Shown here: positions 39,481 to 44,280 of the stretch, piece after piece
Layout of the letters: every line of letters starts with the position of its first letter
Numbering within the stretch: the stretch's first letter is position 1
Source of the DNA: Paracoccaceae bacterium
GTDB taxonomy: Bacteria; Pseudomonadota; Alphaproteobacteria; Rhodobacterales; Rhodobacteraceae
Assembly: GCA_030148225.1 (NCBI GenBank)
Contig: JASBTX010000042.1
Coordinates: 310,001-374,000, forward strand
Direction: 5' to 3'
Length of the DNA: 64,000 bases
Position numbers and translations under genes: made by a program
Notes under the pieces: generated by a model
Told to the model about the DNA's origin: nothing
What the model saw: only the letters and a program-made list of their open reading frames with translations
The model's database searches: none

Positions 39481-39621
39481 CTGGGCCTTGACCTTGCCCA
39501 AAGAGTTCCGCTTTTTTGGTGGCATCTACCTTCTGTCACGAGTGTTTGCGGCCGCTGCGAGGCTTTGATTAGAGCGACGAGTCCAAGGTGGAGGCAAACC
39601 AACACGTCTGGCAGAGAACAC

Positions 39622-40665
39622 TTGACTACAAACGAAATCGATATTCCGGATTCCGACCGCGATACGCTGAACATTCTGGATCGGGATATCCGTCATACGA
39701 TGTCCGAACTGGTGGGCGGGCTGCGGCTGATCGATTTGTCACCGCTGGACAATGCGACCGCCAGCCATCTGACACATATTCGGGAGTCGAGCGAAAAGCT
39801 TGCCAAGCTGACCGAGCATTTTCTGTATCAGACCGATAATCGCACCATTCTGGACGCCTATGTCGCGGCTGCCAAGGTCTCGGTGCCGCCGCCTGATCTC
39901 AGCCATCTGAAAGTTCTGATTGCCGATGGAAACGACGTTGTGCTGCGCCAGCTTGCACCGATGCTGGCGGAAACCGGCGCCGATTTTGAAACGACATCGG
40001 ACGGGGCGGCTGTTCTTGAATATCTGGCGACGGGCAAATTCAACGCGATTGTCATGGATGCCGATATGAACAGTGTCGCCGGATTTGACGTGATGGGCGC
40101 TATCCGGGCCCTGCCGGCGCCGGTCAATACGGTTCCGATGATCGCGATATCGGCCTTTGTGACCAGCCCCAACCGCGAGGCCATTCTGGCCGCCGGGGCG
40201 GACGAGATTCTGGCCAAACCCATTTCGAATGCCGCGGAATTGGGTGGCGCGATCCTGAGTGCCGTGGTCACCGCGCGTTCGGTCGGTTCAATCGCCCTGT
40301 CGCGCAAGACAGCCAACCTGTTGGATCACAAACGGTTCAGTGAATTGTTCGACACCATTGGCGAACACACGCGCGCGGAATTAATGGGGCTGATCATCAA
40401 GGACCTTGTGGGTTGCCGGGATCGGCTGGGCATCGCACTAAGCACCGCCGAGCCGGCTCGCATCCGGGACGAATGTCAGAGCCTGATCGCCATTGCGGGC
40501 ACCATCGGGGCCGAGAAACTACAGGCCGCGGCAAATGAACTGGTGCGCATGATCGGACGCAATGACCGGGCCGGTCTGCTTGTGCTGGGTCGCGAAGTGA
40601 CTGGACAGACCAGCCACCTGATTGCGCTGCTGCGCGAACTTCAGTCAGACTGGCCCGACGCATGA
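39622..40665 (+). CDS. phosphorelay-type protein: HisKA-like DHp, receiver and degenerate HPt; no ATPase domain
   Basis: A 347-residue protein resembling an ArcB-type hybrid kinase from which the HATPase domain is missing. Residues 14-70 form a DHp-like pair of helices with H25 in DRDIRHTMSEL. A receiver follows directly (about 95-215): phosphoacceptor D146 (NAIVMDADMN), S177 and K199 (ILAKPIS). The C-terminus (about 235-345) resembles an HPt domain, but the histidine is replaced by glutamine (ECQSLIAIAGTIGAEKL, Q286). Start uncertain: TTG 39622 fits best; TTG 39565 would add 19 residues that look non-coding. Overlaps the regulator gene by 4 nt. Confidence 0.75.
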   Translation: MTTNEIDIPDSDRDTLNILDRDIRHTMSELVGGLRLIDLSPLDNATASHLTHIRESSEKLAKLTEHFLYQTDNRTILDAYVAAAKVSVPPPDLSHLKVLIADGNDVVLRQLAPMLAETGADFETTSDGAAVLEYLATGKFNAIVMDADMNSVAGFDVMGAIRALPAPVNTVPMIAISAFVTSPNREAILAAGADEILAKPISNAAELGGAILSAVVTARSVGSIALSRKTANLLDHKRFSELFDTIGEHTRAELMGLIIKDLVGCRDRLGIALSTAEPARIRDECQSLIAIAGTIGAEKLQAAANELVRMIGRNDRAGLLVLGREVTGQTSHLIALLRELQSDWPDA

Positions 40666-42047
40666 GCCAATCTGTCCTGCTGATCGAAGACACGCCGACA
40701 CTGCAGATGATCTATGCCACCACGCTTCGCCGTGCCGGTTACCAGGTCGAATGTGCCGTCAGCGGTGCCGAAGCCCGGGCCAAGTTTCGCGCCTACCAGC
40801 CGCATGTCGTCATTCTGGACATGGTGCTGCCCGACACATCGAGCATAGACATCATCAAGGATTGCCTGGACACCTATCCAAATGCCAATTTCATTGCCGT
40901 CACAGCCAGCGATGACATAAACCGGGCGGTTTCAGCCATGCGGGCGGGGGCATATAACTTCATCGTCAAACCCTTTTCAGATGAACAGATGCTCAGCGTT
41001 GTCGATTGTGCCCGCCGCGCCAGCCGATCAGATATCATCGCCGAGCAGAGCTTTGCCGATGACGGGCCACTTCGTGATTTCATCGGGTCATCCCCGGCGA
41101 TGCAGCGGGTCTATCGCCAGATTCTGAGTACCGGCCAGTCCATGGCGACGGCCTTTATCACCGGCGAGATTGGCACGGGCAAAAGGCTTTGTGCGCGCGC
41201 GATACATGATGCATCAGCCCGGTCGGACAAACCCTTTATCGCGTTGAACTGTGCCGAGATCGCGCCCGATCAGATGCGATCCGAGGTTTTCGGGCATCTC
41301 AAGAACAGTTTCCCGGGGGCGCTTGCGCAGAAAACCGGTGCGATCGCCGCCGCAGATAGTGGCACGCTTTTTCTGAACCAGATCGAAAGTCTTGACCTTC
41401 AGCTGCAATCACAGCTTTTGCGGTTTCTCAGGAATTCAACCATCGAGCCGCTTGGGGCCATCCGTCAGATGCGCGTCAATGTCAGGTTGATCTGTGCCTC
41501 CAACCGCGACCCGTTGGCCGAGGTACAGGCCGGGCGGCTTTTGCCCGATCTTTATGACATGCTGAACGTGGTGCCCATCCACATGCCCGCGCTCAGACAT
41601 CGCGAGGACGATGTTATCGAAATTGCACACTATCTGCTGGCGCGCATTTCAGCAGAAGAAGGCCGCCGGTTTGCGGGGATAGATGCGGAAGCCGAAGAGC
41701 TGCTGAGAACGCACCACTGGCCGGGCAATATTGACCAGCTCATCAGCATCCTGCGCGACGCTGTCGTGCTGAATGACGCGGTGTTGTTGTCGGTCGATAT
41801 GCTGCCATCAAACCTGCGCAATCTCGGGGGTGGCGATCTGCCGGTCGGGCAATCAGACCCGATGGGCCTGATCGGCAAGACTCTGGCGGAAATCGAACGC
41901 TGGGCCATCGAGGAGACCATCTCGCGCTCGGAAGGGTCCATTCCCAAGGCAGCGCGTATTCTGGGGGTTGCGCCCTCGACGCTTTATCGCAAAAGGGCGG
42001 CACGGCACGGGGGTGATACCGCGTCAGACGTTATGAAGGTGCGTTGA
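40662..42047 (+). CDS. NtrC/LuxO-type response regulator with degenerate AAA+ domain
   Basis: A 461-residue protein: receiver (D53, T81, K103 conserved), AAA+ domain and Fis-type HTH (KAARILGVAPSTLYRK). The AAA+ core is eroded at nearly every catalytic position. Walker A GEIGTGK (168-174) remains. Walker B reads GTLFLNQ instead of GTLFLDE, and GAFTGA is NSFPGA (215-220). The two arginine fingers of the G-x-F-R-x-D-L-Y-x-R-L-N block are L294 and M300, and the sensor II WPGNVR is WPGNID. It should therefore not hydrolyse ATP or remodel sigma-54 polymerase. More likely it is a phosphorylation-controlled DNA-binding protein acting without sigma-54. Translationally coupled to the preceding phosphorelay protein. 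Confidence 0.85.
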   Translation: MSQSVLLIEDTPTLQMIYATTLRRAGYQVECAVSGAEARAKFRAYQPHVVILDMVLPDTSSIDIIKDCLDTYPNANFIAVTASDDINRAVSAMRAGAYNFIVKPFSDEQMLSVVDCARRASRSDIIAEQSFADDGPLRDFIGSSPAMQRVYRQILSTGQSMATAFITGEIGTGKRLCARAIHDASARSDKPFIALNCAEIAPDQMRSEVFGHLKNSFPGALAQKTGAIAAADSGTLFLNQIESLDLQLQSQLLRFLRNSTIEPLGAIRQMRVNVRLICASNRDPLAEVQAGRLLPDLYDMLNVVPIHMPALRHREDDVIEIAHYLLARISAEEGRRFAGIDAEAEELLRTHHWPGNIDQLISILRDAVVLNDAVLLSVDMLPSNLRNLGGGDLPVGQSDPMGLIGKTLAEIERWAIEETISRSEGSIPKAARILGVAPSTLYRKRAARHGGDTASDVMKVR

Positions 42048-42049
42048 GT

Positions 42050-42811
42050 TCAGGCGAATTGTTCGCGGATTAGGCGCTCGTCCAGCCCGTGGCCGGGATC
42101 AAACAGGATACGATGCGCCACCGACTGATCGATTGTCGCCTCGACCCACAGCACATTGCCCACCGACCGGCTGTCGGCATCGGCCATGACCGGTCGCTTG
42201 TCAGGGTTCAGAACATCGAAGCGGACCCTGACCCGCTGGGGCAGGATCGCGCCGCGCCAGCGCCGTGGGCGAAAGGGGGCGATGGCCGTCAGTGCCAGCA
42301 CATCCGAACCGATCGGCAGAACCGGCCCGTGCGCTGAATAATTATAGGCTGTGCTGCCCGCGGGCGTGGCCAGCAACGCCCCGTCGCAAACAAGCTCGGA
42401 AAGACGTTCGCGTCCGTCCACGGTAATGCTGAGCTTGGCTGCCTGCGGCCCGGCGCGCAAGAGCGAAACCTCGTTGATCGCCAGCGCCTCCATCACCTTG
42501 CCCGACACGGTCTCGGCGCGCATGCGCAGGGGGTTGATCACCGCTTCTTCGGCGGCGTTCAGCCGCCCCTGCAGATCGTCCTCGGAAAACGCGTTCATCA
42601 GGAAACCGACCGTGCCCCGGTTCATGCCATAGGTCGGAATGTTCAGATGCTCGGTCCGGTGCAGGGTCTGCAACATGAAACCGTCACCCCCGAGCGCCAC
42701 GATCACATCAGCCTCGGATTCGTCAGCCGATCCGTATACATCGCCAAGCCTTGCCAGCGCCTCTTGGGCATCAGGCGTCTCACTCGCGACAAAGGCGATC
42801 CGCTTGGACAT
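42050..42811 (-). CDS. nadK: NAD kinase
   Basis: A 253-residue ATP-NAD kinase. The GGDG motif is in VIVALGGDGFMLQTLH, followed by YGMNRGTVGFLMN, and the second half has DGALLATPAGSTAYNYSAHGPVLP. It converts NAD+ to NADP+. I start at the ATG at 42811, as the upstream frame shows no conservation signal. A symmetrical sequence spans its Shine-Dalgarno (see 42819-42842). The stop is 2 bp from that of the convergent regulator gene. Confidence 0.95.
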   Translation of the reverse strand: MSKRIAFVASETPDAQEALARLGDVYGSADESEADVIVALGGDGFMLQTLHRTEHLNIPTYGMNRGTVGFLMNAFSEDDLQGRLNAAEEAVINPLRMRAETVSGKVMEALAINEVSLLRAGPQAAKLSITVDGRERLSELVCDGALLATPAGSTAYNYSAHGPVLPIGSDVLALTAIAPFRPRRWRGAILPQRVRVRFDVLNPDKRPVMADADSRSVGNVLWVEATIDQSVAHRILFDPGHGLDERLIREQFA

Positions 42812-42818
42812 TGCTCGG

Positions 42819-42842
42819 GTTTCCTTTCGGGTACGAGGAAAC
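42819..42842 (-). promoter_or_regulatory. possible Shine-Dalgarno-masking hairpin before nadK
   Basis: On the nadK strand the leader reads GTTTCCT, a 10-nt loop, then AGGAAAC, ending 7 bases before the start codon. The second arm contains the Shine-Dalgarno AGGAA, which the first arm can pair with over 7 bp. It could dampen nadK translation. Confidence 0.35.
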
Positions 42843-42984
42843 ACATGCGCAGCATGCGCGGTCAAGTCCACCATGATGTTCGGTTTTGCCGCCTCTCGTT
42901 GCCTGAAAGTCGCTTTGTCGCCTTTTGCAAAGGCAAGGAACTGTCTAGGAAGCACCCCAAGCCATTCAGTCAGGAGAGCGGGCC

Positions 42985-44280
42985 ATGAATATCACGCATC
43001 GGAGCACCGGATTTTTTACCGAGGACCTCGAAGAGCGCGACGCCGAGGTTTTTGCCGCCATTACATCCGAACTTGGCCGGCAACAGGATGAGATCGAGCT
43101 GATCGCCTCGGAAAACATCGTCAGCCGCGCGGTCATGCAGGCCCAGGGGTCGGTGATGACCAACAAATACGCAGAGGGATACCCGGGCAAACGCTATTAC
43201 GGTGGCTGCCAGTATGTCGATATTGCCGAGAACCTCGCGATCGAGCGGGCCTGCCAGCTTTTTGACTGTAAATTCGCGAATGTGCAGCCGAATTCGGGCA
43301 GCCAGATGAACCAGGCCGTTTTCCTGGCGCAGCTGAAACCGGGCGATACGTTCATGGGGCTGGATCTGAATTCGGGCGGGCATCTGACCCACGGCTCACC
43401 CGTGAACATGTCTGGCAAGTGGTTCAACGTGGTCAGCTATGGCGTGCGCCAGCAGGATGAGCAGTTGGATATGGAAGCCATTCGCGAAACCGCGCTGCGA
43501 GAGCGGCCCAAGCTGATCGTTGCGGGTGGCACCGCCTATTCCCGCGTCTGGGACTGGGCCGAATTTCGTGCCATTGCCGATGAAATCGGCGCGTGGCTGA
43601 TGGTGGATATGGCGCATATTGCCGGGCTGGTGGCCGGTGGGCAGCACCCGTCACCCCTTCCGCATGCGCATGTGGTTACGACAACGACGCATAAATCGCT
43701 GCGCGGACCGCGCGGCGGGCTGATCCTGACCAATCACGAGGATATCGCCAAGAAGGTCAACAGCGCCGTCTTTCCGGGGCTGCAGGGTGGGCCGCTGATG
43801 CACGTTATTGCCGCAAAGGCCGTCGCCTTTGGCGAGGCGCTGCGCCCCGAGTTCAGGGAATATGCTGCCCAGGTCGTACGTAACGCACAGGCGATGTCGG
43901 ATCAGTTGATGAAAGGCGGGCTGAACGTGGTCAGCGGCGGCACTGACAACCACCTGCTGCTGGCCGATCTGCGCCCCAAGGGCGTGACCGGCAAGGCGGC
44001 AGAGGCGGCGCTGGGCCGGGCCAATATCACCTGCAACAAGAACGGCGTCCCGTTCGACCCCGAAAAGCCCTTTGTCACCTCGGGCATCCGGCTGGGGGCA
44101 CCGGCGGGTACGACACGCGGGTTTGCCGAGGCCGAGTTCCGCCAGATCGCGGATTGGATCACAGCGGTGGTTGATGGTTTGTCGGCCAATGGAGAAGATG
44201 GAAACGCCGCGGTCGAGGCCGGTATCCGGGAAGAGGTAATCAGCCTGTGCAGGCAATTTCCGATCTATCCGTCGGTCTGA
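42985..44280 (+). CDS. glyA: serine hydroxymethyltransferase
   Basis: A 431-residue PLP enzyme. The PLP lysine (about K237) lies in [28 protein letters not shown] near the N-terminus and [15 protein letters not shown] are family signatures. It interconverts serine and glycine with tetrahydrofolate, supplying one-carbon units. The ribosome site is AGGAGAG. The 173-bp upstream gap to nadK shows no riboswitch I recognise. Confidence 0.97.

Follow-up and report, generated by a model that had tools for sequence, protein, structure and literature searches.

Enhancer-binding proteins (EBPs) that act independently of sigma-54 have been described one by one, as in the case of NtrC, HupR, VpsR and TyrR. 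All four provide precedents for action at sigma-70 promoters (PMC10274813, PMC3162934), and among defective EBPs generally the replacement of Thr or Ser by Pro at position 4 of the GAFTGA loop is a preferred defect (PMC3162934). In Cereibacter sphaeroides, AprX together with the sigma factor RpoN3 activates xrpA, which encodes an XRE-type protein that represses ctrA and chpT; the gene is flanked by a divergent quinone oxidoreductase gene on one side and a hisN paralog on the other (PMC11999139). In the survey of AprX in that study an intact loop was required for a homolog to be counted (PMC11999139), and orthologs with a lesioned loop would thus be scored absent. For the related regulator LuxO, the operator consensus is TTGCAW3TGCAA (PMC11443567).

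The stretch analysed here (the window) comprises 64,000 nucleotides from Paracoccaceae bacterium, and its gene at 40662-42047 is, judged by sequence and neighbours, a syntenic ortholog of a LuxO-like EBP. The ortholog group is probably that of AprX (RSWS8N_13400) of C. sphaeroides, an identification for which architecture and co-occurrence, rather than the sequence of that protein, were used, and made mainly because the joint occurrence of intact AprX and a sigma-54 promoter at xrpA reproduces the one reported (PMC11999139). The window gene shares with the group the REC-AAA+-Fis HTH architecture and the place beside nadK/glyA and beside a gene for a kinase or an Hpt protein, and its genome holds xrpA with a LuxO-type operator upstream. 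The features of the locus are the following:

39565-40665, plus strand: remnant hybrid histidine kinase gene, sharing 4 bp with the start of aprX (domain search, synteny, relatives)
40662-42047, plus strand: aprX-type response regulator, REC-AAA+-lid-Fis HTH, with a degenerate AAA+ domain (ORF, Pfam, alignments, synteny)
40668-41009, plus strand: receiver, D10, D53, T81 and K103 retained (Pfam, ortholog alignment)
41163-41183, plus strand: Walker A, GEIGTGK (residues 168-174), retained (ortholog alignment)
41304-41321, plus strand: former GAFTGA loop, here NSFPGA (215-220) (LuxO/NtrC1 and ortholog alignments)
41376-41381, plus strand: Walker B, D-E changed to N239-Q240 (LuxO/NtrC1 and ortholog alignments)
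41541-41561, plus strand: arginine-finger positions, here L294 and M300 (LuxO/NtrC1 and ortholog alignments)
41733-41735, plus strand: sensor II position, here D358, Arg in every other aligned row (ortholog alignment)
41871-42002, plus strand: Fis-type HTH (404-447), conserved to the degree seen in intact orthologs (Pfam, consensus comparison)
42050-42955, minus strand: nadK (NAD kinase), syntenic neighbour of aprX (synteny)
42985-44280, plus strand: glyA (serine hydroxymethyltransferase), syntenic neighbour of aprX (synteny)

The reading frame is free of stops and encodes 461 residues, on which Pfam places Response_reg at 5-114, Sigma54_activat at 141-307, AAA_lid_14 at 312-387 and HTH_8 at 407-446. 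Through residue-level alignments to LuxO/NtrC1 and to 96 orthologs, it was found that NSFPGA replaces G[SA]FTGA in the loop, with T218P as the change at position 4, and that the Walker B, finger and sensor II residues replaced in the window copy are invariant among intact orthologs. The M300 position is altered in just one further row and the D358 change is unique to the window copy, which is among the most damaged orthologs seen. Sensor I is only partly altered (ATNR to ASNR, with Asn retained), and the residue following Walker A is changed as well (GKE to GKR); G168, G173 and K174 of Walker A are retained, as is the HTH. Every residue named in the original prediction proved correct in these alignments, including those of the receiver (D53, T81 and K103), Walker A and the Fis-type HTH that it had described as retained. 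Its statement that the AAA+ domain is dead at almost every catalytic position holds for hydrolysis and sigma-54 contact but not for nucleotide binding, Walker A being kept, and the protein may bind ATP without hydrolysing it. An AlphaFold2 model retains the AAA+ fold, with pLDDT mostly above 75 outside the loop, and matches the LuxO catalytic domain with a TM-score of 0.93 at 1.6 A. Against the NCBIfam LuxO equivalog NF041946 the protein scored 408.7 bits and did not reach the cut-off of 800.

The gene upstream of aprX bears on the phosphorylation input. In many relatives it encodes a hybrid kinase (DHp/HisKA, HATPase, REC, Hpt), with the Hpt His retained in the aligned relatives, and in the genome with four rpoN copies (G075) it encodes a stand-alone Hpt protein of about 200 residues. 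No kinase gene was seen near aprX in the AprX study (PMC11999139); this adjoining gene, hybrid kinase or stand-alone Hpt, is a candidate AprX phosphodonor. In the window the DHp His is replaced by Arg, the HATPase domain is missing, REC is retained and the Hpt His is replaced by Gln; because of these losses the adjacent phosphorelay should not work in this genome, and the receiver of the window copy may be driven by another donor, or by none. The kinases beside other lesioned copies (L186, L192, L196) look intact. The possibility that the neighbour represents Osp was rejected, Osp being a single-domain protein of 120 residues (PMC9430884).

The ortholog search covered 395 genomes of the family and returned a strong ortholog in 95; the alignment, which comprises the window protein and 96 orthologs, has 97 rows. 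The block formed by the kinase gene, aprX, nadK on the opposite strand and glyA recurs across many genera, including lesioned ones, and this synteny argues against paralogy in place of orthology, which was rejected. A contig scan with peptides from divergent parts of the window protein returned no close orthologs and mostly Pirellulaceae LuxO-like proteins. Loop, Walker B, fingers and sensor II are intact in 74 of the 97 rows. Some lesion is present in the other 23, ranging from a single Thr-to-Pro change (GAFPGA) to the joint loss of loop, Walker B and fingers. One row scored as lesioned, L187 (GSFSGA), is probably functional despite its loop change, because Ser is tolerated at loop position 4 (PMC3162934). 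A further, very degenerate ortholog is present in genome G016. Changes were counted on a nadK+glyA tree, as the AprX tree itself joins long branches; on it the loop lesion amounts to 13 changes among 18 lesioned rows and its strong form to 8 changes among 9 rows. Loop loss in the AprX group thus appears to consist mostly of parallel events in many lineages, with the reading frames left open. The nearest relative of the window's genome on that tree, G092, has an intact AprX. In the genus of G257, loop-lost AprX occurs in two of five species and none was found at E<=1e-70 in the other three, which suggests that degeneration can precede outright loss of aprX.

The lesions follow the partner sigma factor. 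A search with PF04552 in 80 ortholog genomes found rpoN missing from 16, and the loop is lesioned in 15 of these 16 compared with 8 of the 64 genomes with rpoN (Fisher p=1e-9, with L187 counted as lesioned; the association would become stronger if this row were moved). When only starred branches are counted, there are five independent pairs, concordant in most pairings but too few for p<0.05. The exception among the genomes lacking rpoN is G386, in which AprX is intact and neither rpoN nor an xrpA sigma-54 promoter is present, a state that would be expected of an early stage. In the RpoN tree, two clades (12 rows with support 100 and 11 rows with support 90) contain AprX-intact genomes exclusively, and one or other of these clades includes a copy from each AprX-intact genome sampled, the basal single-copy lineages excepted, whereas all 10 RpoNs from seven lesioned genomes (the window's included, that of L187 aside) fall outside both. 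The RpoN of the window's genome groups with one copy of G075 and sits in a flhA-flhF-fliA-fliD locus (gene names by reading of ORFs); RpoN2 of C. sphaeroides is likewise found in a flagellar locus (PMC7277832). Lesioned genomes that retain RpoN therefore seem to carry other paralogs, the flagellar one in the case of the window's genome. No AprX-type (RpoN3-like) rpoN was found in the assembly of that genome, which is 89% complete, so that the gene could be missing from it, although the lost promoter argues otherwise.

At the target, xrpA was found in the window's genome in the C. sphaeroides arrangement. A sigma-54 promoter lies close upstream of xrpA in 38 of 39 intact genomes and in none of 22 lesioned ones (p=1e-15), a contrast stable at thresholds 12-15, and none was scored upstream of xrpA in the window's genome. 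The operator, by contrast, persists: a TTGCAN3TGCAA site that fits the LuxO consensus is present upstream of xrpA, with at most one mismatch, in 37 of 39 intact genomes, 17 of 22 lesioned genomes and 1 of 21 genomes lacking AprX (lesioned versus AprX-less, p=1e-6; shuffled rate 1.1%). Because the site is absent from 20 of the 21 AprX-less genomes, the idea that it belongs to the xrpA region in general was rejected. Two operator-bearing genomes first scored as AprX-less turned out to have AprX, highly degenerate in one of them. Genome G007 (L318) has a perfect TTGCAAAATGCAA site upstream of xrpA though no AprX was detected there, possibly reflecting a recent loss of aprX. In the 3.5-Mb assembly of the window's genome there are two exact operator matches, and the one at xrpA is the only one with an A/T spacer. 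Binding of AprX to the xrpA operator is suggested by this co-occurrence together with the LuxO precedent.

The reading favoured here starts from what can be read directly in the letters: orthology, lesions, the absence of an AprX-type rpoN from the assembly, promoter loss and operator retention. It seems rather probable that the window gene encodes an AprX uncoupled from sigma-54 that continues to bind the operator of its ancestor and whose effect, if any, falls on a sigma-70 promoter. The ancestor would have been a LuxO-like sigma-54 activator with xrpA as its target. In the lineage of the window, the cognate RpoN3-like paralog and the sigma-54 promoter of xrpA would have been lost, a flagellar-type RpoN alone being found, and the AAA+ domain, then freed from sigma-54, would have let loop, Walker B, arginine fingers and sensor II drift away while the receiver Asp, Walker A and the HTH were retained. 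The protein most likely still sits on the operator TTGCATTTTGCAA, modulating a sigma-70 promoter there in the way known for R. capsulatus NtrC and VpsR at their targets; we infer this output, and whichever sign it has, as we do the order of events, for which loss of the RpoN3-type factor and promoter followed by drift of the AAA+ domain is the most economical account. The pseudo-EBP of the original prediction, which would bind DNA under phosphorylation control, accordingly stands in part: independence from sigma-54, a probably dead ATPase, a kept HTH and an operator persisting at xrpA agree with it, but phosphorylation control is doubtful given the dead adjacent kinase. More tentatively, and with odds that we would put below even, the group may represent a replicated natural experiment on the escape of sigma-54 activators from sigma-54, in which loss of the cognate RpoN paralog and of the -24/-12 promoter of the target repeatedly yields a regulator that binds ATP without hydrolysing it, stays on the operator and controls its old target through sigma-70, its own kinase input being gone in the lineage of the window.

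The chief rival is slow decay, which weighs most for the window copy, as its partner kinase is dead. According to this explanation, the module became dispensable after RpoN3 loss, aprX and the kinase are vanishing under relaxed selection, and the operator is a remnant or belongs to another regulator. Apart from the dead partner kinase, it draws on the long end branch of the window copy in the AprX tree (1.35 versus a median of 0.54), on the failure to detect aprX in three of five congeners of a loop-lost genome, and on its absence from about three quarters of the sampled genera at E<=1e-90. Other observations speak against it. In a set of 11 strongly lesioned orthologs, the positions that never vary among intact members were lost at 26 of 80 in AAA+, compared with 1 of 13 in REC, 0 of 20 in the lid and 0 of 10 in the HTH. 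In the window copy, identity to the intact consensus is 0.73 for the HTH (mean of intact members 0.74) and 0.58 versus 0.92 for the catalytic positions of AAA+. D53 is retained in 23 of 23 lesioned rows and the Walker A Lys in 22 of 23, and thus receiver Asp, Walker A and HTH persist in all or nearly all lesioned lineages. The window branch, still without a stop, carries more than 500 estimated replacements, on which a neutral ORF should carry tens of stops. Two congeners with GAFPGA, one of them also with D-Q at Walker B, gave dN/dS of 0.057 for AAA+ and 0.078 for the HTH at a dS of about 0.7; this pair comes from the genus of G257 and represents the mild form of the lesion, with rpoN status established for the first congener only. 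Since the operator is also missing from nearly all genomes without AprX and retained in most lesioned genomes, decay is considered unlikely, if still a serious contender. These data bear on two further points of the original prediction. A stable pseudo-ATPase shared across genera is not supported, as the same substitutions are not conserved and, with most orthologs intact, those of the window are not a family trait. An isolated decaying gene, named there as the refuting outcome, also fits poorly, in view of recurrent loop loss in many lineages, open frames and the low dN/dS of the two loop-lost congeners.

The regulated gene could also differ from the ancestral one. In the window's genome the putative operator TTGCATTTTGCAA lies between xrpA and the divergent quinone oxidoreductase gene (qor), and therefore either may be the present target. 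Its centre is nearer to the qor start (133 bp) than to xrpA (207 bp), which would favour control of the NADPH:quinone oxidoreductase gene instead of xrpA by the pseudo-AprX; the spacing is nevertheless much as in intact genomes, whose sigma-54 promoter faces xrpA, and such a switch is improbable.

Five of the six EBPs of the window's genome are without GAFTGA, including a loop-less NtrC and NtrX. A second two-component EBP (L205:7280-8524, G000:C5) has no GAFTGA and reads INS at Walker B; it adjoins genes that resemble an arsenite oxidase cluster (AioX, AioS, AioB and AioA by appearance), and no sigma-54 promoter was scored in the interval that precedes the aioB-like gene. A DctD-like regulator (L204:8606-9928, G000:C31) has a shortened loop and ED at Walker B. 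The only EBP with intact GAFTGA and Walker B (L203:8648-9793, G000:C38) consists of AAA+ and lid with no HTH and is FleT-like. It is very improbable that the window protein remains functional through the flagellar RpoN2 left in this genome, or by joining an intact EBP in mixed oligomers: one rpoN and one intact GAFTGA EBP do remain, and FleQ assembles with FleT into a heteromeric complex in R. sphaeroides (PMC7277832), but xrpA has no sigma-54 promoter in this genome, T218P and the loss of Walker B and both arginine fingers stand against it, and the RpoN paralogs of C. sphaeroides are specialised to their own activators (PMC11999139).

The value of the AprX group lies in the fact that intact, loop-only and fully degenerate members occur within one ortholog group, for which sigma factor, promoter and operator are all readable from sequence, and that a genetically tractable relative, C. 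sphaeroides, exists. The analysis also points to a candidate phosphodonor gene adjoining aprX, and it calls for caution, as such proteins should not be annotated as sigma-54 activators. Two aspects are new as far as the literature searched shows. One is how many losses have occurred in parallel within a single ortholog group, and the other is that sigma factor and promoter are lost in step while the operator stays.

In comparison with known systems, AprX (RSWS8N_13400) shares the REC-AAA+-HTH architecture and the co-occurrence with xrpA (PMC11999139), and intact members of the ortholog group resemble it in carrying G[SA]FTGA and in the sigma-54 promoter that their genomes have at xrpA; AprX of C. 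sphaeroides differs in its working GSFTGA/ATPase set and its need for RpoN3. The window copy has lost that set, and its genome shows neither a cognate RpoN nor a promoter of this kind. LuxO (5ep0) is the closest solved relative, alike in the operator consensus TTGCAW3TGCAA and the Hpt partner, but it is an active sigma-54 activator. The defective EBP of Jannaschia sp. CCS1 also has an altered GAFTGA Thr in a sigma-54-less genome and was proposed to be sigma-70 dependent; it is a single case, with Glu at that position, and its orthology to AprX is not stated (PMC3162934). VpsR of Vibrio cholerae (7v2b) is a GAFTGA-less EBP that acts on sigma-70 promoters and does not need ATP (PMC3162934, PMC10274813), while being another ortholog with another signal. 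The NtrCs of R. capsulatus and Caulobacter are likewise GAFTGA-less NtrC-type regulators of sigma-70 promoters, in which the loop is deleted, ATP binding is needed and phosphorylation matters, with hydrolysis apparently needed in Caulobacter (PMC10274813 and references in it); the window copy, unlike these, has in addition lost Walker B and both arginine fingers, and the adjacent kinase is dead.
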